NCBI RefSeq assembly: GCF_000374165.1
Contig: NZ_KB893694.1
Span: 62,100 to 126,099 of the forward strand
DNA: 64,000 nt
Direction: 5' to 3'
From: Parafrankia elaeagni
GTDB taxonomy: Bacteria; Actinomycetota; Actinomycetes; Frankiales; Frankiaceae
Under the pieces are notes generated by a model that saw only the letters and a program-made list of their open reading frames with translations, searched no databases and was not told the DNA's origin. The position numbers and the translations under genes were made by a program. Shown here one piece after another: positions 10,157-22,395 of the stretch; positions within the stretch are counted from its first letter, which is position 1, and each line of letters begins with the position of its first letter.

Positions 10157-10558
10157 ATGGGCGAGAACAGTATGGGGCTGCATGAGCAGTCCGGAGCCCT
10201 CTCACCAGGAACGATCGACCGCCACCGGGCGATCGCGTCGCTGATGGAGGAGCTGGAGGCCGTCGACTGGTACGACCAGCGGGTCGAGGCGGCCACGGAC
10301 CCGGAGCTGGCCGCGCTGCTGGCGCACAACCGGGACGAGGAGAAGGAACACGCGGCGATGACGCTGGAGTGGCTGCGTCGCCGTGACCCGGTGCTGGACT
10401 CGCAACTGCGTACATACCTGTTCACCTCGGTTCCGGTGACGGAGGTCGAGGAGGTGGCGATGAGCGACGAGGGCCCTGACGGAGACGCCTCGGCGCGGGC
10501 CGCGGAGCCGTCGGACGGCTCGCTGGGGATCGGAAGCCTGAGAGGTGTGAGCGAGTGA
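10157..10558 (+). CDS. encapsulated ferritin-like cargo protein (EncFtn)
   Basis: The 133-residue protein is an encapsulin-associated ferritin, which oxidises Fe(II) inside the encapsulin shell. Residues matching the EncFtn ferroxidase centre are E32, E62 and H65, in MEELEAVDWYDQRV and HNRDEEKEHAAM, and W38/Y39 are also present. After the two helices comes an acidic flexible linker and then the C-terminal encapsulation peptide DGSLGIGSLRG, which docks the cargo on the shell's inner face. Its stop codon overlaps the start of the encapsulin gene (GTGA), so the two are translationally coupled. A second ATG at 10172 is an alternative start. Confidence 0.96.
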   Translation: MGENSMGLHEQSGALSPGTIDRHRAIASLMEELEAVDWYDQRVEAATDPELAALLAHNRDEEKEHAAMTLEWLRRRDPVLDSQLRTYLFTSVPVTEVEEVAMSDEGPDGDASARAAEPSDGSLGIGSLRGVSE

Positions 10559-11385
10559 ACCATCTACTGCGTGGCTATGCACCCGTGACCGAGGCGGGCT
10601 GGAAGGCCATCGACGACGAGGCCCGGGGGCGGCTGACGACGAACCTCGCCGCCCGCAAGCTGGTCGACTTCGCCGGTCCCCACGGCTGGTCCTATTCGGC
10701 CACCCCGCTCGGGCGGGTCGCTCCGCTGCAGTCGCAGCCCGGTGACGGTGTGCGCGCCCGGCTGCGCCAGGTGCTTCCCGTGATGGAGCTGCGGGCGCCG
10801 TTCACCGTCGACCGCGGAGAACTGGAGGCGATCGACCGGGGCGCCGACGACATCGACCTCTCCGGTCTGGAGGACGCGGCCCGGCGGGTGGCGGTGACCG
10901 AGAACTCGGTCGTCTTCCACGGCAATGCCGAGGCAGGCATCGTCGGCATCGCCGAGGCGTCCTCCCATCCCCCGCTGGAGCTGGGGGCGGACACCGACTC
11001 CTACCCGCGCACAGTCGCCAAGGCGGTCGCTCTGCTGCGCCGGGCCGGTATCGGCGGGCCGTACGGGCTGGCCGTCGACCCCGACGGCTACACCGCGATC
11101 CTGGAGGCGACCGAGCACGGTGGATACCTGCTGATCAGCCATCTCAAGCAGATTCTCGACGGCCCGGTGGTGCGGGCGCCGGGGATCCACGGCGCGGTGG
11201 TGCTGAGCCAGCGGGGCGGGGACTTCATCTTCGATTCCGGCCAGGACCTCTCCGCCGGCTACTCGTCCCACACGCTGGACGAGGTGGAGCTGTACCTGGA
11301 GGAGAGCTTCACCTTCCGGGTGACCGAACCGGACGCCGCGGTCGCACTGGTGCCCGGCGCCGACCGCCCGGCCAGCCAGGCCTGA
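10555..11385 (+). CDS. encapsulin nanocompartment shell protein
   Basis: This 276-residue HK97-fold protein is an encapsulin (linocin M18 family), expected to self-assemble into a small icosahedral shell around the EncFtn cargo. Family features include the N-terminal helix with LAPVTEAGWKAID-like sequence (here YAPVTEAGWKAIDDEAR), VAVTENSVVFHGNAEAGIVGI around residue 105-130, and a C-terminal SHTLDEVELYLEESFTFRV. Length is normal for a T=1 encapsulin. It is the second gene of a two-gene iron-storage operon, closed by a strong hairpin 17 bases downstream. Confidence 0.96.
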   Translation: MNHLLRGYAPVTEAGWKAIDDEARGRLTTNLAARKLVDFAGPHGWSYSATPLGRVAPLQSQPGDGVRARLRQVLPVMELRAPFTVDRGELEAIDRGADDIDLSGLEDAARRVAVTENSVVFHGNAEAGIVGIAEASSHPPLELGADTDSYPRTVAKAVALLRRAGIGGPYGLAVDPDGYTAILEATEHGGYLLISHLKQILDGPVVRAPGIHGAVVLSQRGGDFIFDSGQDLSAGYSSHTLDEVELYLEESFTFRVTEPDAAVALVPGADRPASQA

Positions 11386-12103: not shown

Positions 12104-12574
12104 GTGCGTGGCGACGAACAGATCGTCGAGAGGCTGAACGCGGTTCTGACGAATGAGCTGACCGCCGTCAACCAGTACTTCCTGCATTCGAGAATGCAGC
12201 GGAACTGGGGATACAAGCACATTTCCGAGCACTACTACCATGAGTCGATCGACGAGATGAAGCACGCCGATCGACTCATCCACCGGGTGCTCTACCTCGG
12301 TGGTCTGCCGAACCTCCAGCGACTGCACACCCTGCGCATCGGGGAGACGGTTCCCGAGCAGCTGACCCTCGACCGTACGCACGAGACCGAGGCGGTGGAC
12401 CTGCTCCGGGAGTCGATCGCACTGTTCCGGACAAAGGGCGACGTCGGATCGGCCGTGCTCCTCGAGGAGATCCTCACATCCGAGGAGGAGCACATCGACT
12501 GGCTCGACGCGCAGCTCGAACTCATCTCCCAGCTCGGCGCCACGGAGTACCTGTCCCAGCAGATCCGCGACTGA
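12104..12574 (+). CDS. bfr: bacterioferritin
   Basis: This 156-residue haem-containing ferritin forms a 24-mer cage that oxidises and stores iron. The ferroxidase ligands E18, E51 and H54 are visible (LTNELTAVNQY; ESIDEMKHADR) along with the second-half ExxH set in TSEEEHIDWLD. M52 is in the position of the haem-binding Met. Length is standard. The GTG start has a GGAGG ten bases upstream. It follows bfd and stands next to the encapsulin/EncFtn operon, so two different ferritin systems are side by side. Confidence 0.96.
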   Translation: MRGDEQIVERLNAVLTNELTAVNQYFLHSRMQRNWGYKHISEHYYHESIDEMKHADRLIHRVLYLGGLPNLQRLHTLRIGETVPEQLTLDRTHETEAVDLLRESIALFRTKGDVGSAVLLEEILTSEEEHIDWLDAQLELISQLGATEYLSQQIRD

Positions 12575-16655: not shown

Positions 16656-18254
16656 TCAGCCGGCGGCGGGGGTGCTCGGGCCGGCGGGGGTGCTCGGGCC
16701 GGCGGCGGCGTCCAGCTCGGCTGCCTCGGTGGGCTCGAGGTCCGGGCGGATCGGCAGTGAGACCCGGAAGCGGGTGTCGCCGGGGACGGAGGTGACCGTC
16801 AGGTTGCCGTGGTGGCGGCTGACGACGATGCGCCAGGAGATGTCGAGCCCGAGCCCGGTGCCCTCGCCGACTGCCTTCGTCGTGAAGAACGGCTCGAAGA
16901 TCCGCTCCTGGATCTCCGGTGCGACGCCGGTACCGGTGTCGCGGATCTCCACTACCAGGTCGTCGTGGTCCGCCCAGGTGGCGATCGTGAGGGTTCCGGA
17001 GCCGCCCATCGCCGCGGTGGCGTTGTCGATGAGGTTCGTCCAGACCTGGTTGAGCTCGGCGGCGTGGACGGGGATCTCCGGCAGGGTCCGGTCGTACTCG
17101 CGGGCGACCCGGACCCCGGCGAGTTTGCCCCCGAGCATGGTGAGGGTGCTGTCGAGCAGTTCGTGCACGTCGACCTGGCGGTAGGGCGCCCGGTCGAGCT
17201 GGGAGTACTGCTTGGTGGCCGCGAGCAGGCCGGAGATCCGGTTCGTGGACTCCTCGATCTCCTTCATGAGCAGTTCGCTCTCGACCGTGTAGGTCAGCCA
17301 GCGGACGGCGCCTTCGAGGATCTCCGGGGAGACGGTGACGGCGACCCGCTCCAGCCAGTCGACGTCGATGCCGCCCTGGACGAAGGTCGGCGCCAGCTCC
17401 CAGCCGCCGGTGACGCCGTGGTCGTCGAGCCAGTCCGCGACGGCGTCCTCGCGGTCGCTGGTCTCCATCGGCGTCAGAGCGGGTGCCTTCCCGACGCGCT
17501 CGGCGGCGTCCTCCTGCAGGCCGATCAGGGCCTCCAGCGCCGGGCGGTCGTAGGGGCCGGCGGCGATCATCCCCAGTTTGTGCCGCATGCCGGCGACCCG
17601 TTCCCGCAGCGAGACGGTGGCGCGCACCGCGGCGGCGGCCGGGTTGTTGAGCTCGTGGGTGAGCCCGGCGGACAGCGACCCGAGCGCGAGGAGCCGCTCG
17701 CGCTGCCCGGTCAGCTGCTGGAGGTTCTTCTGCCCGAAGAACAGCCCCTCCAGCATGTGGACGGCCATCGGGAACCAGTCGCGCATGAGCCGCGACAGCG
17801 CCGTGCCGTCCAGCACGACGAACCGGGACGGGGCCGTGACCCGCAGGGAGTTGGTGTAGACCTGCGGGACCCGGTCCTCGAGGTAGGCGAACCAGGCGCC
17901 GGCGTAGACGCCGCGCTGGCTGGTCCGGGAGACCTCGACGTCGTCGTCGCCGACCCGCCGGGTGAGGACGATGGTGCCTTCGACCAGCACGTAGAAGCAG
18001 GTGGCCGGATCGCCTTCCAGGAAGACCGGGCCGGCTTCGATCAGCTCGACGTGGCCGTTGCGGCAGATCCACTCGAGCTGGTCGTCGGTGAGCTTCTCGA
18101 AGAGGAACAGGCTGCGCAGCTCGTCGATGTCACAGGGCAGCGCGGTGCCCCTGACGCACGCCTGGCCCATGGCCTGGGCGCCGTCGGCCTGGGCGCCGTC
18201 TGCCGTGCCGGCCTGGGCGCCGCCCGCCGGCGCACCTTCCGTCTCGCCCGCCAT
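16656..18254 (-). CDS. sensor histidine kinase with cyclic-nucleotide-binding-type domain
   Basis: The 532-residue soluble protein has a low-complexity N-terminus, a CNB/Crp-like domain at about residues 45-155, and a histidine kinase core. The domain shows IEAGPVFLEGDPATCFYVLVEG and RGVYAGAWFAY. The core has the phosphoacceptor H200 in LTHELNNPAAAA, the N box in LNQVWTNLIDNATAAM, and G boxes in IRDTGTGV and GEGTGLGLDIS. No membrane segment is visible, so the signal is cytosolic. It lies 17 bases downstream of the REC-flavoprotein gene and is probably cotranscribed with it, which makes that protein its likely partner. The ligand of the CNB domain is unknown. The start has a GAGGAGG site. Confidence 0.92.
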   Translation of the reverse strand: MAGETEGAPAGGAQAGTADGAQADGAQAMGQACVRGTALPCDIDELRSLFLFEKLTDDQLEWICRNGHVELIEAGPVFLEGDPATCFYVLVEGTIVLTRRVGDDDVEVSRTSQRGVYAGAWFAYLEDRVPQVYTNSLRVTAPSRFVVLDGTALSRLMRDWFPMAVHMLEGLFFGQKNLQQLTGQRERLLALGSLSAGLTHELNNPAAAAVRATVSLRERVAGMRHKLGMIAAGPYDRPALEALIGLQEDAAERVGKAPALTPMETSDREDAVADWLDDHGVTGGWELAPTFVQGGIDVDWLERVAVTVSPEILEGAVRWLTYTVESELLMKEIEESTNRISGLLAATKQYSQLDRAPYRQVDVHELLDSTLTMLGGKLAGVRVAREYDRTLPEIPVHAAELNQVWTNLIDNATAAMGGSGTLTIATWADHDDLVVEIRDTGTGVAPEIQERIFEPFFTTKAVGEGTGLGLDISWRIVVSRHHGNLTVTSVPGDTRFRVSLPIRPDLEPTEAAELDAAAGPSTPAGPSTPAAG

Positions 18255-18271
18255 GTGGCCTCCTCAGCGTC

Positions 18272-20008
18272 TCAGCGTCTCGCCAGGTAGCGGTGCACGA
18301 GGGCGACGGCCATCGCGCCTTCGCCGACGGCCGAGGCGACCCGCTTGACCGACTCGGCCCGGGCGTCGCCGGCCACGAACACCCCGGGCAGGCTGCTTTC
18401 CAGGTGGTAGGGGTCCCGCTCGGCGCCCCAGCCCGCCGGCCGCCGCCCGTCGACGACGAGATCCGGCCCGGCCAGGACGAAGCCGTGCTCGTCCCGGGCG
18501 ACGACCCCGTCCAGCCAGTCGGTGCGGGGCGCGGCGCCGATGAAGATGAACAGCCACTGGGTGTCGACCCGCTCGGTCTCGCCCGTCGCGTTGTCCCGCA
18601 GGACAAGACCCTCCAGGTGGCCGTCGCCGTGCCCGGAGACGACCTCCGTGCAGGCGCGGACGTGGATGTTCGGCACGGCCGCGATCTGCTCGATGAGGTA
18701 GTGGGACATGGACGCCTCCAGCCCCCGGCCCCGGACGAGCATCGTCACCGACTTCGCGTGCCGGGCGAAGTACATCGCCGCCTGACCGGCCGAGTTCGCG
18801 CCGCCGACGACGTAGACGTTCTCGCCGCTGCAGCTCGGCGCCTCGGTGAGCGCGGAGCCGTAGAACACCCCCTGGCCGGTCAGATCGCTCAGGCCGGGGG
18901 CGTCGAGCTGCCGGTAGGAGACGCCGGTGGCGAGGATGACCGCGTGCGCGTCGATGCTGCCCCCGTCCCCGAGGACCAGCCGCCGGGCGGGGCCCGCGGC
19001 CTCCAGGGCCACCACGTCGGCGGTGGTCAGCAGCTCCGCGCCGAACTTGACCGCCTGCCGGCGGGCCCGGTCGGTGAGCTGGGAGCCGGAGACGCCGTCG
19101 GGGAAGCCGAGGTAGTTCTCGATCCGTGAGCTCTGGCCGGCCTGGCCGCCGGTCGCGTGCCGTTCGACGAGCAGCGTCCGCAGCCCCTCGGAGGCCCCGT
19201 ACACCGCCGCGCCGAGGCCCGCCGGGCCACCGCCGACGACGACGAGATCGTAGAAGTCGCCAGCGGGCGCGGTCGCCAGCCCGACCCGGCTCGCGAGCTC
19301 GCCGTCGGTCGGGTTGACCAGGGCGGTGCCGTCGGTGGTGATGACGCAGGGGATCGTGTCCGGCGACGCGCCGGCGGCGGCGAGCAGCCGCTCGCCCTCC
19401 GGCTCGTCCGCCAGATACCACCGGTAGGGCACGTGGTTGCGGGCCAGGAAGTCGCGCACCTCGTAGGACCGGGCCGACCACCGGTGCCCCACCACCCGCG
19501 TCTCGGCGACGGGCCGGCGGTCCGTGGCGAGCCAGGCGTCGAGCAGGGCGTCCAGGACGGGGTAGAGCTTCTCCTCCGGCGGGTCCCACGGCTTGAGCAG
19601 GTAGTGGTCGAGATCGATGACGTTGATCGCGTCGATCGCGGCGCTGGTGTCCGCGTAGGCGGTGAGCAGCACCCGGCGGGCGGTGGGGAACAGGTCCATC
19701 GCCTGCTCCAGGAACTCGATGCCGTTCATGCCCGGCATGCGGTAGTCGGCGAGCAGGATCGCGACCTCGTCGCCACGCAGCTTGATCTCGCTCAGCGCCT
19801 CCAGGGCCTGCGCGCCCGACTCGGCGCGCACGATCCGGTAGTCGCCGCCGTACCGGCGCCGCAGGTCCCGGGCGACCGCCCGGGAGACGTTCACGTCGTC
19901 GTCGATGGTCAGCAGCACCGGGCGGGGAGCCCCGCGCCCGGCCCGGCCGCCGGTGGAGGCGGAGCCGGCGGCGGCAGGCTCCGGCGGGTGCGGACTGGGT
20001 GTCGTCAC
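18272..20008 (-). CDS. response regulator fused to thioredoxin-reductase-like flavoprotein
   Basis: This 578-residue fusion has a receiver domain at about 30-155 with the phosphoacceptor D88 in LLADYRMPGMNG and a K in LLKPWD. A glutaredoxin-like stretch lacking a CxxC follows at about 165-240. The C-terminal FAD/NAD(P)-binding module resembles thioredoxin reductase, with VVVGGGPAGLGAAVYGASEG, IENYLGF and VYVVGGANSAGQAA. The canonical CxxC is absent: that position reads GVFYGSALTEAPSC. The module matches the subfamily more often found fused to CNB domains. Here the CNB domain is in the adjacent kinase instead. Phosphorylation-controlled flavin redox activity is the simplest inference; substrates are unknown. 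The start codon is GTG. Confidence 0.92.
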   Translation of the reverse strand: MTTPSPHPPEPAAAGSASTGGRAGRGAPRPVLLTIDDDVNVSRAVARDLRRRYGGDYRIVRAESGAQALEALSEIKLRGDEVAILLADYRMPGMNGIEFLEQAMDLFPTARRVLLTAYADTSAAIDAINVIDLDHYLLKPWDPPEEKLYPVLDALLDAWLATDRRPVAETRVVGHRWSARSYEVRDFLARNHVPYRWYLADEPEGERLLAAAGASPDTIPCVITTDGTALVNPTDGELASRVGLATAPAGDFYDLVVVGGGPAGLGAAVYGASEGLRTLLVERHATGGQAGQSSRIENYLGFPDGVSGSQLTDRARRQAVKFGAELLTTADVVALEAAGPARRLVLGDGGSIDAHAVILATGVSYRQLDAPGLSDLTGQGVFYGSALTEAPSCSGENVYVVGGANSAGQAAMYFARHAKSVTMLVRGRGLEASMSHYLIEQIAAVPNIHVRACTEVVSGHGDGHLEGLVLRDNATGETERVDTQWLFIFIGAAPRTDWLDGVVARDEHGFVLAGPDLVVDGRRPAGWGAERDPYHLESSLPGVFVAGDARAESVKRVASAVGEGAMAVALVHRYLARR

Positions 20009-20318: not shown

Positions 20319-20741
20319 ATGCGCATCGGTGAGCTGGCGCGGCTCGCGGGGACGAGCACCCGCGCGCTGCGGCACTACGAGGAGCGCGGGCTGCTCGCCG
20401 CCCGTCGGCTCGCCAACGGCTACCGCGACTACAGCGCCGCGGATCTGCGCGAGGTCGAGGAGATCCGAGCACGGGTGGCGGACGGGTTCGCGCTCGCCGA
20501 GACCCGTCCCTTCGTCGAGTGCCTGCGGGCGGGGGAGGGGACCAGCGACGCCTGCGTGGACTCGATCGAGGGCTACCGCCGCCGGATCGCGCAGGTCGAC
20601 GCCGAGATCGCCCGGCTGCGGCACGTGCGGGAGCGGCTGGCGGCCCAACTCGACACGGCGTGCCACGGTGCCCGCGGCCAGGGGGACGTCCCGCCCGCGC
20701 CGCCGGGGTGCGTGCTGTTCCCGGCTCAGCCCGGCGTCTGA
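20319..20741 (+). CDS. MerR family transcriptional regulator
   Basis: The 140-residue protein has the MerR DNA-binding domain (MRIGELARLAGTSTRALRHYEERGLL, residues 1-26, then NGYRDYSAADL) and a dimerisation helix (about 80-115). Four Cys residues follow the DNA-binding domain (FVECL, SDACVD, DTACHG, PPGCVL), which could serve thiol or metal sensing. They do not form the SoxR CxxCxxC(x5)C cluster. The next gene on the same strand is a thioredoxin, so a thiol-redox regulon is plausible. The first ATG is used because homology starts there. Confidence 0.9.
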   Translation: MRIGELARLAGTSTRALRHYEERGLLAARRLANGYRDYSAADLREVEEIRARVADGFALAETRPFVECLRAGEGTSDACVDSIEGYRRRIAQVDAEIARLRHVRERLAAQLDTACHGARGQGDVPPAPPGCVLFPAQPGV

Positions 20742-20771
20742 CCGCCGTCACGTCTCCTTCCTGTCGTCTCC

Positions 20772-20813
20772 TTCTCCGTACCTTTCGGCCGTTTCTCCGT
20801 ACCTTTCCGCCGT
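20772..20813. repeat. 21-bp tandem direct repeat before thioredoxin gene
   Basis: Two adjacent 21-bp units, TTCTCCGTACCTTTC(G/C)GCCGT, differ at one position. Their length equals two helical turns. They lie 61 bases before the thioredoxin start and 31 bases after the MerR stop, in the place expected for an operator or promoter of trxA. Confidence 0.8.
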
Positions 20814-20873
20814 GCGCCGGCCAGCCCCCGCGGCCGGGCGGGCGGATCACCCAAGCTCTGAGGGAGCTGTCTC

Positions 20874-21236
20874 ATGCCTGTTCACGAGATCTCCGCCGCC
20901 GACGGTGTGGTGTGGGAGGTCGGCGACGACACCTTCGCGGACGCCGTGCTGCGGTCCCCGGTCCCGGTGCTGGTCGACTTCCAGGCCGACTGGTGCCCGC
21001 CCTGCCGGATGATGCGGCCGATCCTGCGCCAGGTCGCGTCCGAGCTGGCCGGCCGGCTGCGCGTCGTCGAGGTGGACGTCGACGCCAGCCCGCGCACCGC
21101 GCTCGCCCACGGCGTGCTGGCCATGCCGACGATGGTCGTCGTCCGTGACGGCCGGGCGGTGGCGACGCTGGTGGGCGCCCGCAGCCGCCGGCGCCTGCTG
21201 GACGACATCGCCGACCACCTGGTGGGCCAGCCGTAG
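20874..21236 (+). CDS. thioredoxin-like protein with WCPPC active site
   Basis: This 120-residue thioredoxin-fold protein carries the redox motif ADWCPPC (C41, C44) instead of the canonical WCGPC, followed by RMMRPILRQVASEL. The cis-Pro loop is present in AMPTMVVV. The WCPPC variant shifts redox potential in known thioredoxins and is found in some thioredoxin subfamilies; which substrates are affected here is unknown. The 14-residue N-terminal extension before the fold is short and lacks a signal peptide, so it is cytosolic. MerR lies upstream and a metallo-beta-lactamase hydrolase downstream on the same strand. Confidence 0.92.
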   Translation: MPVHEISAADGVVWEVGDDTFADAVLRSPVPVLVDFQADWCPPCRMMRPILRQVASELAGRLRVVEVDVDASPRTALAHGVLAMPTMVVVRDGRAVATLVGARSRRRLLDDIADHLVGQP

Positions 21237-21307
21237 GACCGCGCCGGGCCACGGGTGGGCGGTCGGGGGTTCTGGAGCGGCGGGGCCGGGCTCCGTAGGC
21301 TCACGGT

Positions 21308-22018
21308 GTGAGCGAGCGCCTGTACTTCCGTCAGCTTCTGTCCGGTCGTGACTTCGCGGTCGGTGACCCCGCGGCGACGCAGATGGTCAACTTCGTCTAC
21401 CTGATCGGTGACCGGGAGACCGGGGAGGCCGTCGTGGTCGACCCCGCCTACCGGGTGGGCGACCTGCTCGACGTGCTCGCCGCCGACGACATGCGGCTGA
21501 CCGGGGCGCTGGTCACCCACCACCACGCAGACCATGTGGGCGGCACCGCCTTCGGCATCGAGCTGGAGGGCATCCGCGAGCTGCTGGAACGCACCTCCGT
21601 CCCGATCCACCTGCAGCGGGACGAGGCGGAGTGGGTGCGGCGCGGGACGGGGGTGGGCGCGGCCGAGCTCGTCGAGCACGACGACGACGACGTGGTCACC
21701 GTCGGCTCGGTGGACATCCGGCTGCTGCACACGCCGGGGCACACCCCGGGCAGCCAGTGCTTCCTCGTCGACGGCCGCCTCGTCGCCGGGGACACGCTGT
21801 TCCTCGAGGGCTGCGGGCGGATGGACTTCCCCGGCGGCGACGCGGCCAAGATGTACGACAGCCTGCGGCGCCTCGGCACCCTGCCGGACGACGTGACCGT
21901 CTACCCGGGCCACCGGTACTCGGCGGAGTCCTCGGCCGAGCTCAGCGTGGTGCGCAAGATGAACTACGTCTTCCGGCCGACGAGCTCCAGGCAGTGGCTC
22001 GCCATGCTCGGCGCCTGA
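21308..22018 (+). CDS. metallo-beta-lactamase-fold hydrolase (glyoxalase II / persulfide dioxygenase-like)
   Basis: The 236-residue protein has the MBL zinc/iron motif THHHADHVGG (H71-H76), later metal ligands in LHTPGHTPGS and AGDTLF, and a terminal YPGH. The N-terminus (RDFAVGDPAATQMVNFVYLIGD) matches a widespread actinobacterial MBL group related to glyoxalase II and persulfide dioxygenases. Either thioester hydrolysis or sulfur oxidation is possible; the thioredoxin and SelW-like neighbours lean towards thiol or sulfane-sulfur chemistry, but this is inference. The start is GTG, with an alternative a few codons downstream. Confidence 0.85.
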   Translation: MSERLYFRQLLSGRDFAVGDPAATQMVNFVYLIGDRETGEAVVVDPAYRVGDLLDVLAADDMRLTGALVTHHHADHVGGTAFGIELEGIRELLERTSVPIHLQRDEAEWVRRGTGVGAAELVEHDDDDVVTVGSVDIRLLHTPGHTPGSQCFLVDGRLVAGDTLFLEGCGRMDFPGGDAAKMYDSLRRLGTLPDDVTVYPGHRYSAESSAELSVVRKMNYVFRPTSSRQWLAMLGA

Positions 22019-22104
22019 CCGCTCGCGGTGGCGACGTACGGGGTGGCGACGTACGGAGTGGCGATGCACAGGGTGGGCGGGAACGTACGGGGTAGGGGTC
22101 GGCT

Positions 22105-22395
22105 GTGACCGGTGAGGCCAGGCAGGAACGCCCCCGGGTGGAGATCGAGTACTGCACCCGCTGCAGGTGGCTGCCGCGGGCGGCCTGGCTGGCGCAGGAG
22201 CTGCTGACCACGTTCGAGGCCGAGCTGGGCGCGGTCGCCCTCGTCCCGGGCACGGGCGGGGTGTTCACCGTGCGGGTGGACGGAGAGGTGCTCTGGGACC
22301 GCGCGGAGCAGGGCTTTCCCGAGCCGTCCGCGGTGAAGCGCGCCCTGCGCGACCGGGTCGCCCCGGACCGCCCGCTGGGCCACGTCGAGCGCTGA
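22105..22395 (+). CDS. SelT/SelW/SelH (Rdx) family redox protein, cysteine form
   Basis: This 96-residue thioredoxin-fold protein matches the selenoprotein-W-like family. The redox motif is CTRC (C17, C20) after VEIEY, in the place where animal homologues carry CxxU. The C-terminal segment GEVLWDRAEQGFPEPSAVKR is the usual family signature. It is thought to function in thiol redox reactions, with unknown partners. It is the last gene of the same-strand run MerR-thioredoxin-MBL-Rdx. A 15-bp GTGGCGACGTACGG-type direct repeat lies just upstream around 22026-22056. Confidence 0.88.
   Translation: MTGEARQERPRVEIEYCTRCRWLPRAAWLAQELLTTFEAELGAVALVPGTGGVFTVRVDGEVLWDRAEQGFPEPSAVKRALRDRVAPDRPLGHVER

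Follow-up and report, generated by a model that had tools for sequence, protein, structure and literature searches.

A pair of adjacent minus-strand genes in Parafrankia elaeagni encodes a histidine kinase and a receiver domain (REC) fused to a thioredoxin reductase (TrxR)-like flavoprotein; the pair lies in a 64,000-nt stretch of contig NZ_KB893694.1 (assembly GCF_000374165.1, positions 62,100 to 126,099), hereafter the window. We class the pair as a variant of the two-component system with an enzyme-like output. Its flavoprotein is not classed as a thioredoxin reductase, being set apart from these enzymes by the absence of the redox-active CxxC. Response regulators act mostly on DNA, second messengers or proteins. 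We consider it reasonably likely that, taken as a whole, this locus is a two-component unit in which phosphorylation controls a flavoprotein output.

Kinase and flavoprotein genes occur together

Both open reading frames (ORFs) of a preliminary description of the window were confirmed as one minus-strand unit. The flavoprotein gene (18272..20008, minus strand; 578 aa; delimited from ORF, Pfam and structural model) is followed 17 bp downstream, on the same strand, by the kinase gene (16656..18254; 532 aa, ATG start, read as an ORF from the window). The GTG start of the flavoprotein gene is tentative, as conservation and model quality are both poor over residues 1-26 and the RefSeq version of one relative begins at about residue 22. 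A transmembrane-like stretch was found in neither protein (top 19-residue Kyte-Doolittle means 1.05 and 1.34), in keeping with the earlier designation of the kinase as soluble.

The preliminary description had proposed a gene-neighborhood search for co-occurrence, and the two genes were indeed found together. Among the best 80 of 566 relatives (named genomes, all Actinomycetota by title), the kinase is present in 79 loci, on the same strand and downstream of the flavoprotein; one locus (L029) stops at the contig edge, one (L050) has its kinase 3.8 kb off, and the others have it close by. In a sample of 149 Actinomycetota genomes (family members called at E <= 1e-60), 33 hold the flavoprotein family, four of them as redox-active glutaredoxin (Grx)-TrxR forms only, and 18 have the kinase-linked REC type (broken in G141); the kinase occurs in these same 18 and in no others. 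A sample of 396 Actinomycetota genomes, which contains the first sample again and was searched at a cut-off of 1e-165 set from it, yielded 55 flavoprotein loci in 49 genomes and 70 kinase loci in 51 genomes, with 46 genomes in common. A flavoprotein match stands alone in three genomes and a kinase match in five; among the four of the latter that were read, the flavoprotein is sub-threshold in G177, frame-broken in G308 and fragmented in G141, and was not found on the 3.7-kb contig of G363. By coordinates, 48 of the 55 flavoprotein loci adjoin a kinase (46 downstream, 2 upstream). The seven others comprise four with the kinase cut by a contig end, one with a broken kinase-like gene upstream, one in which the flavoprotein gene is itself cut, and one true exception (L149). 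In this sample, the kinase is next door to 53 of 54 assessable REC-flavoproteins of the kinase-linked type.

The association extends to plasmids and beyond Actinomycetota. Ten of the 60 best-ranked plasmid records (99 matched) match over the REC, and all ten carry the kinase, which abuts the flavoprotein in nine and lies 2.6 kb off, beyond a transposase and another gene, in one; 5/15 plasmid records with the kinase have no REC-bearing match among the 60 best-ranked. The pair was detected in Actinomycetota (including many Streptomyces), Deinococcota, Pseudomonadota and Cyanobacteriota. On three cyanobacterial plasmids (L096, L144, L147), the unit comes after glgX and an AGE-family epimerase gene. 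Across 80 pairs, distances between the kinases closely track those between the flavoproteins (r = 0.915; best of 2000 permutations 0.27), mostly through shared ancestry. That the two genes are chance neighbors with unrelated functions found no support and has next to no probability: adjacency is maintained across four phyla, and the co-occurrence data from the 80 loci, both genome samples and the plasmids exclude it. We regard the kinase-receiver pairing as almost certainly genuine.

Receiver residues are kept with the kinase and decay without it

The receiver domain (residues ~31-161; 19526..19918, minus strand) is supported by Pfam (Response_reg, 47.9 bits), conservation and the model. The preliminary description had quoted its acceptor D88 correctly, and the degeneracy that it suggested looking for was not seen in this receiver: the acceptor set D36, D37, D88, T116 and K139 is intact in 81/81 close proteins, 80 of which were seen with a kinase. 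The set is likewise complete in 13/13 distant kinase-linked proteins (one with E36) and in 14/14 further ones, 27/27 together.

A different pattern holds in 17 relatives (L101-L117) with a receiver-like domain (profile scores 18-84 bits, some weak) and with no kinase of the same family found in the stretches read around them. In eight genomes that hold this kinase-less type alone, no kinase match was obtained at E <= 1e-45. The 17 proteins retain the acidic pair in 7, D88 in 4, Ser/Thr116 in 2 and Lys139 in 5 cases. None has a full readable acceptor set; L103, cut at its N-terminus, keeps D88, the Thr and the Lys. They form one clade (17 rows, Shimodaira-Hasegawa-like approximate likelihood ratio test (SH-aLRT) 95; 16 rows in a second tree, 100/100). 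Phosphotransfer to D88 predicts just such a contrast between decay in the kinase-less clade and strict conservation in the other proteins, and transfer from kinase residue H200 to D88 is, on this conservation pattern, very probable. Together with co-occurrence and adjacency, the pattern supports the earlier proposal of a single kinase-receiver unit. All 17 kinase-less relatives also carry Arg at the Glu297 position of the RIENYLGFP flavin-domain motif, where the others have Glu or Asp; because of this shared Arg, their function may differ as well.

A flavoprotein without its redox cysteines

Two domains follow the receiver. The middle domain (residues ~166-246; 19271..19513, minus strand) was recognized by hhalign and in the model: it matches the active Grx domain of the fusions L126-L129 at 98.6% probability, the model shows Grx-type fold elements at 170-241, and P220, at the glutaredoxin cis-Pro position, is kept in 81/81 close sequences. 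The CPDC of this fold is replaced by SARS (178-181), which removes the first-position redox Cys; among 67 aligned sequences, position 178 is Cys solely in L126-L129. The TrxR-like flavin adenine dinucleotide (FAD)/NAD(P) module follows (residues 252-577; 18278..19255, minus strand), identified by Pfam (Pyr_redox_2, 102.8 bits), alignment and structure comparison. It has an FAD motif (GGGPAG, 259-264), an NAD(P) motif (GGANSAG, 402-408) and, in the place of the CxxC, YGSALTEA (383-390), which lies within residues 380-393 (GVFYGSALTEAPSC), a string that the preliminary description had given accurately along with its claim that the CxxC is replaced. The only cysteines of the protein are 221, 393 and 453, and no CxxC occurs anywhere. 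The first reading had missed the Grx-fold domain with its second lost CxxC, as well as the kinase insert, the zinc-finger partner and the kinase-less clade.

The loss is general among relatives. The CxxC-less tree set comprises 63 proteins (38 kinase-linked REC, 17 kinase-less REC and 8 others, 6 of these with a Pfam cyclic-nucleotide-binding (CNB) domain). In all 63, neither the Grx nor the TrxR motif stretch contains a CxxC, and all 63 keep G259, G261 and G264 (FAD) and G402, N405 and S406 (NAD(P)). These relatives have thus lost both redox sites together and retained the FAD and NAD(P) motifs, and by alignment SARS and YGSALTEA are homologous replacements of the lost active sites. With neither cysteine pair of the Grx-TrxR lineage left and the cofactor motifs kept, the electron acceptor would not be a disulfide that reacts at a CxxC in the active site. 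Joint loss of CxxC in both domains could also be expected of a redox-dead pseudoenzyme whose FAD fold serves the REC as a dimerization platform, yet a mere scaffold should lose the six cofactor-motif residues that all 63 relatives retain, and we consider this improbable. Still less probable is a thiol-disulfide reductase working through C393 instead. This residue is invariant in 81/81 close sequences, but it is not conserved outside that set (in the wider set, Cys in 32/38 kinase-linked and 0/17 kinase-less proteins), on which ground we rejected this reading; the motif stretches offer no CxxC, and a distinct TrxR homologue with CATC (L090) is encoded in the window genome.

TrxRs alternate between flavin-oxidizing (FO) and flavin-reducing (FR) forms. 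The AlphaFold 2 (AF2) model of the flavoprotein (mean predicted local distance difference test (pLDDT) 80.3, predicted template modelling score (pTM) 0.68) superposes on the FR form of Lactococcus lactis TrxR (5mh4) at 2.1 Å over 298 residues, as against 7.6 Å over 292 residues for the FO form (5mjk); comparison with solved structures covered flavoprotein residues 249-578 and kinase residues 186-505 well. With no CxxC, the FO form would be unneeded, and it would make sense for the geometry to stay hydride-accepting throughout, at which the model hints. The flavoprotein is probably enzymatically active. The earlier proposal that the pair acts through a flavoprotein and not by binding DNA is supported.

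The kinase and its sensor domain

The kinase has the phosphoacceptor His and the N and G boxes for ATP binding. H200, the predicted phosphorylation site in the H-box LTHELNNP (17655..17657, minus strand), is conserved in 80/80 close kinases, as are E201, N204, N407, N411, D439, G441, G465 and G467. The catalytic ATPase domain (residues ~359-501; 16752..17180, minus strand) was assigned by Pfam (HATPase_c, 80.7 bits) and the model. Between the two, a helical insert interrupts the phosphoacceptor (dimerization and histidine phosphotransfer, DHp) hairpin (residues ~233-312; 17319..17558, minus strand), as indicated by the model and by an H200-to-N407 spacing of 207-213 in 80/80 kinases.

The CNB-type sensor named in the preliminary description is best called CNB-like, and a cyclic nucleotide is doubtful as its ligand. 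This putative domain (residues ~37-149; 17808..18146, minus strand) was delimited from Pfam, alignment and the model; cNMP_binding scores 25.1 bits in the window kinase, under the Pfam cut-off of 27.5, while four of five homologous partner kinases scanned exceed the cut-off (30.8-69.3 bits) and a receiver takes the place of the domain in the fifth. DNR and cNMP-binding chains match the kinase, and region 37-149 is strand-rich in the model. The phosphate-binding cassette motif GE...R[S/T]A is what we take to define the canonical ligand Glu. Position 120, assigned to this Glu by reading the alignment, is A120 in the window protein and, among the 80 close kinases, Ala in 71, Ser in 9 and Glu in none. 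Because of this substitution, a cyclic nucleotide is disfavored and the signal is probably a different one. A canonical-looking cassette was found by pattern in the distant partner kinases L119, L120 and L135. Three cysteines of the domain (C41, C64, C86) occur together in 67/80 kinases and are mostly missing in the distant partners compared; they suggest a metal or redox sensor, as a lead only.

Kinase number and arrangement vary. Two or three kinases per locus occur in L095, L118, L143 and L146: one REC-flavoprotein is flanked by two kinases in L095 and L146, and three tandem kinases of the same family lie downstream of one REC-flavoprotein in L118 (2856-8861). In L161 and L162, the partner kinase has no CNB match (a weak REC match lies ahead of it in L161) and an additional large HATPase protein is encoded upstream, an arrangement that suggests a multi-step relay. 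On a Mycolicibacterium arabiense plasmid (L141, 6016-13210), a lone kinase of the same family has a pair of nucleotide cyclase genes and a member of a Pycsar effector family encoded ~4 kb away.

Relatives and known systems

The preliminary description rightly mentioned relatives of the flavoprotein that are fused to CNB domains. Of eight tree rows assigned to this group, six pass the Pfam CNB cut-off (L097, L098, L099, L121, L123, L124), and L122 and L125 have no recognized front domain. Like the window protein, the CNB-fused relatives have a Grx-fold and TrxR-like core with both CxxC pairs lost. In contrast to it, CNB replaces REC, and no kinase of the window family occurs in the stretches read. 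The GEL glutamate is kept in the five where it was read (L097, L098, L121, L123, L124), a zinc-finger gene lies next door in L098, L123 and L124, and several records are annotated as 'cyclic nucleotide-binding domain-containing thioredoxin-disulfide reductase'. The trees do not establish the further suggestion that the sensor had been split off from such a fusion: they fix neither the order in which CNB-fused and REC-fused forms branched nor the root among L120, the CNB forms and the other REC forms, and a single clade of kinase-linked forms is not rejected (approximately unbiased test, p-AU 0.657 in one tree test, 0.217 in another).

Other relatives delimit the family. The redox-active fusions L126-L129 (L126 has an open frame of 411 aa) share a homologous two-domain core; they differ in their intact motifs (Grx CPDC or CGDC, TrxR CATC) and have no REC or CNB match. 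Compared with bacterial thioredoxin reductase and AhpF, the window protein is distinguished by its CxxC-less domains and the attached REC. TrxR-like ferredoxin/flavodoxin-NADP+ reductases (FNRs), such as FNR1 and FNR2 of Bacillus cereus, are defined by a TrxR fold without CxxC and a ferredoxin or flavodoxin partner; the window protein has a similar fold and no CxxC, and by sequence and Z score it is nearer to TrxR than to FNR. To our knowledge, TrxR-like FNRs have no REC or Grx fold.

REC-TrxR fusions as such are already known. A 2018 census of archaeal two-component systems catalogued REC-thioredoxin reductase response regulators, called Mycobacterium-like and including Heimdallarchaeota (PMC5847659). 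These have the same domain pair as the window protein; the passages of the census on them do not mention a kinase partner, a Grx-fold domain, CxxC loss, a zinc finger or decayed kinase-less forms. The redox-active CxxC has been named as an NTR motif, alongside the thioredoxin-binding motifs GR/KG and FF, in PMC9025218. Thioredoxin docking on response regulators, as described in PMC9584953, is by analogy a possible precedent for a REC packed against a thioredoxin-like fold. The relevant passage of PMC6599016 names only an unspecified thioredoxin reductase. No functional study of a REC-TrxR-like pair was found in the open-licence literature.

A zinc-finger gene and other neighbors

A gene for a small UBP-type zinc-finger protein accompanies the kinase in 62/80 loci (61 on the same strand, L033 convergent); the Tsukamurella copy scores 54.6 bits against zf-UBP (Pfam). 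In the 149-genome sample, zf-UBP is present in 21/33 genomes with the flavoprotein family versus 10/116 without. By coordinates it adjoins family genes in 7/33 (G128, G100, G045, G097, G106, G050, G092), and these seven span kinase-linked, kinase-less and CNB forms. In Streptomyces angustmyceticus, the CNB-fused relative (L098, 1-7296) stands behind dnaK-grpE-dnaJ-cbpM-clpB-trxA-UBP, and clpB and trxA matches also occur at L122 and L123. Because of this chaperone-trxA-UBP cluster and the recurrence of clpB and trxA, the zinc-finger/flavoprotein context hints at redox or protein-quality stress.

The same context lends some weight to a different role, in which the flavoprotein senses the NAD(P)H/flavin redox state and phosphorylation sets its binding, for example to the UBP zinc finger, while turnover would be slight or absent. 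The loss of both catalytic cysteine pairs with retention of the cofactor motifs would fit, as would the zinc-finger associations and the chaperone cluster. However, the kept NAD(P)H/FAD motifs and a model in hydride-transfer orientation fit turnover equally well, and neither the window pair nor 18 of the 80 loci has the zinc-finger gene. We see such a sensor as a possibility of lower standing, unlikely though not negligible. Active, phosphorylation-controlled flavoprotein output is the reading that we carry forward.

The window genome has a single zf-UBP match, on another contig (G000 contig 54; L100, 90-1698), behind Sir2-like and GNAT genes. Eukaryotes combine a deacetylase with ZnF-UBP, of which this arrangement is reminiscent. 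An S-(hydroxymethyl)mycothiol dehydrogenase gene beside the Tsukamurella copy was considered as a general partner and rejected, with strong matches solely at L016 and L085 of the 80 loci. Adjoining the window pair, a divergent MerR regulator, a thioredoxin (WCPPC), an MBL-fold hydrolase and an Rdx/SelWTH-type gene occupy 20319-22395 (plus strand). Their complete set recurs in P. colletiae alone among the 80 loci (L009, whose flavoprotein has 97% protein identity to the window copy); elsewhere, the MBL gene is the sole one to reappear, with good matches in L011 and L012 and weak ones in L016 and L085, and we rejected these genes as conserved partners. Farther away, an iron-storage compartment cluster on the plus strand (10157-11385 and 12104-12574) holds a gene for an EncFtn-like encapsulated ferritin, immediately after it the gene for an encapsulin shell protein (Linocin_M18), and nearby a ferritin-like gene.

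Proposed mechanism and implications

We hypothesize that the soluble kinase uses its CNB-like domain to detect a signal in the cytoplasm, probably something other than a cyclic nucleotide, autophosphorylates on H200 and hands the phosphate to D88 of the partner receiver. Phosphorylation would alter how the receiver and the redox-dead glutaredoxin fold are seated on the TrxR-type FAD/NAD(P)H module, and the state of the receiver would control how electrons pass from NAD(P)H to FAD, the docking of an electron acceptor, or both. The zinc-finger protein encoded next door in many species would be a likely partner. On balance, we lean towards phosphorylation gating the flavoprotein, and thereby changing its flavin oxidoreductase activity.

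Several observations weigh against this mechanism. Kinase absence and receiver decay amount in essence to a single loss with subsequent decay and do not count as 17 independent tests; because the kinase-less clade is one event, Fisher p-values for receiver decay are not to be taken literally, and those for decay and co-occurrence alike ignore relatedness. At the exceptional locus L149, no kinase was found within the 14 kb read, although the contig has one at a distance of 22 kb, and the flavoprotein retains all acceptor residues despite lacking an adjacent kinase. Conversely, 13 of the 70 kinases have no listed flavoprotein within 6 kb, and kinases without a nearby REC-flavoprotein include L130, L141, L142, L158 and L159. 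AF2 yields one state, and its preference for FR may have causes unrelated to function; the kinase model reaches a pTM of only 0.37. The conserved FAD/NAD(P) fold may serve binding alone, and neither the window pair nor the 18 loci mentioned above are accompanied by the zinc-finger gene.

A broader and more speculative view, which we hold to be rather doubtful, is that of a widespread non-transcriptional module: a lineage of disulfide reductases would have lost its two cysteine pairs and turned into an NAD(P)H/flavin switch gated by phosphorylation, with an interchangeable REC or CNB front and an output through a small bacterial UBP-type zinc-finger protein tied to redox and protein-quality stress. 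The kinase-less sister clade offers a ready natural control for the effect of phosphorylation, and the lost cysteines make the destination of the electrons a directly testable question. If our hypothesis is true and a response regulator does gate an NAD(P)H-flavin module, two-component signalling would be linked directly to cellular electron flow.

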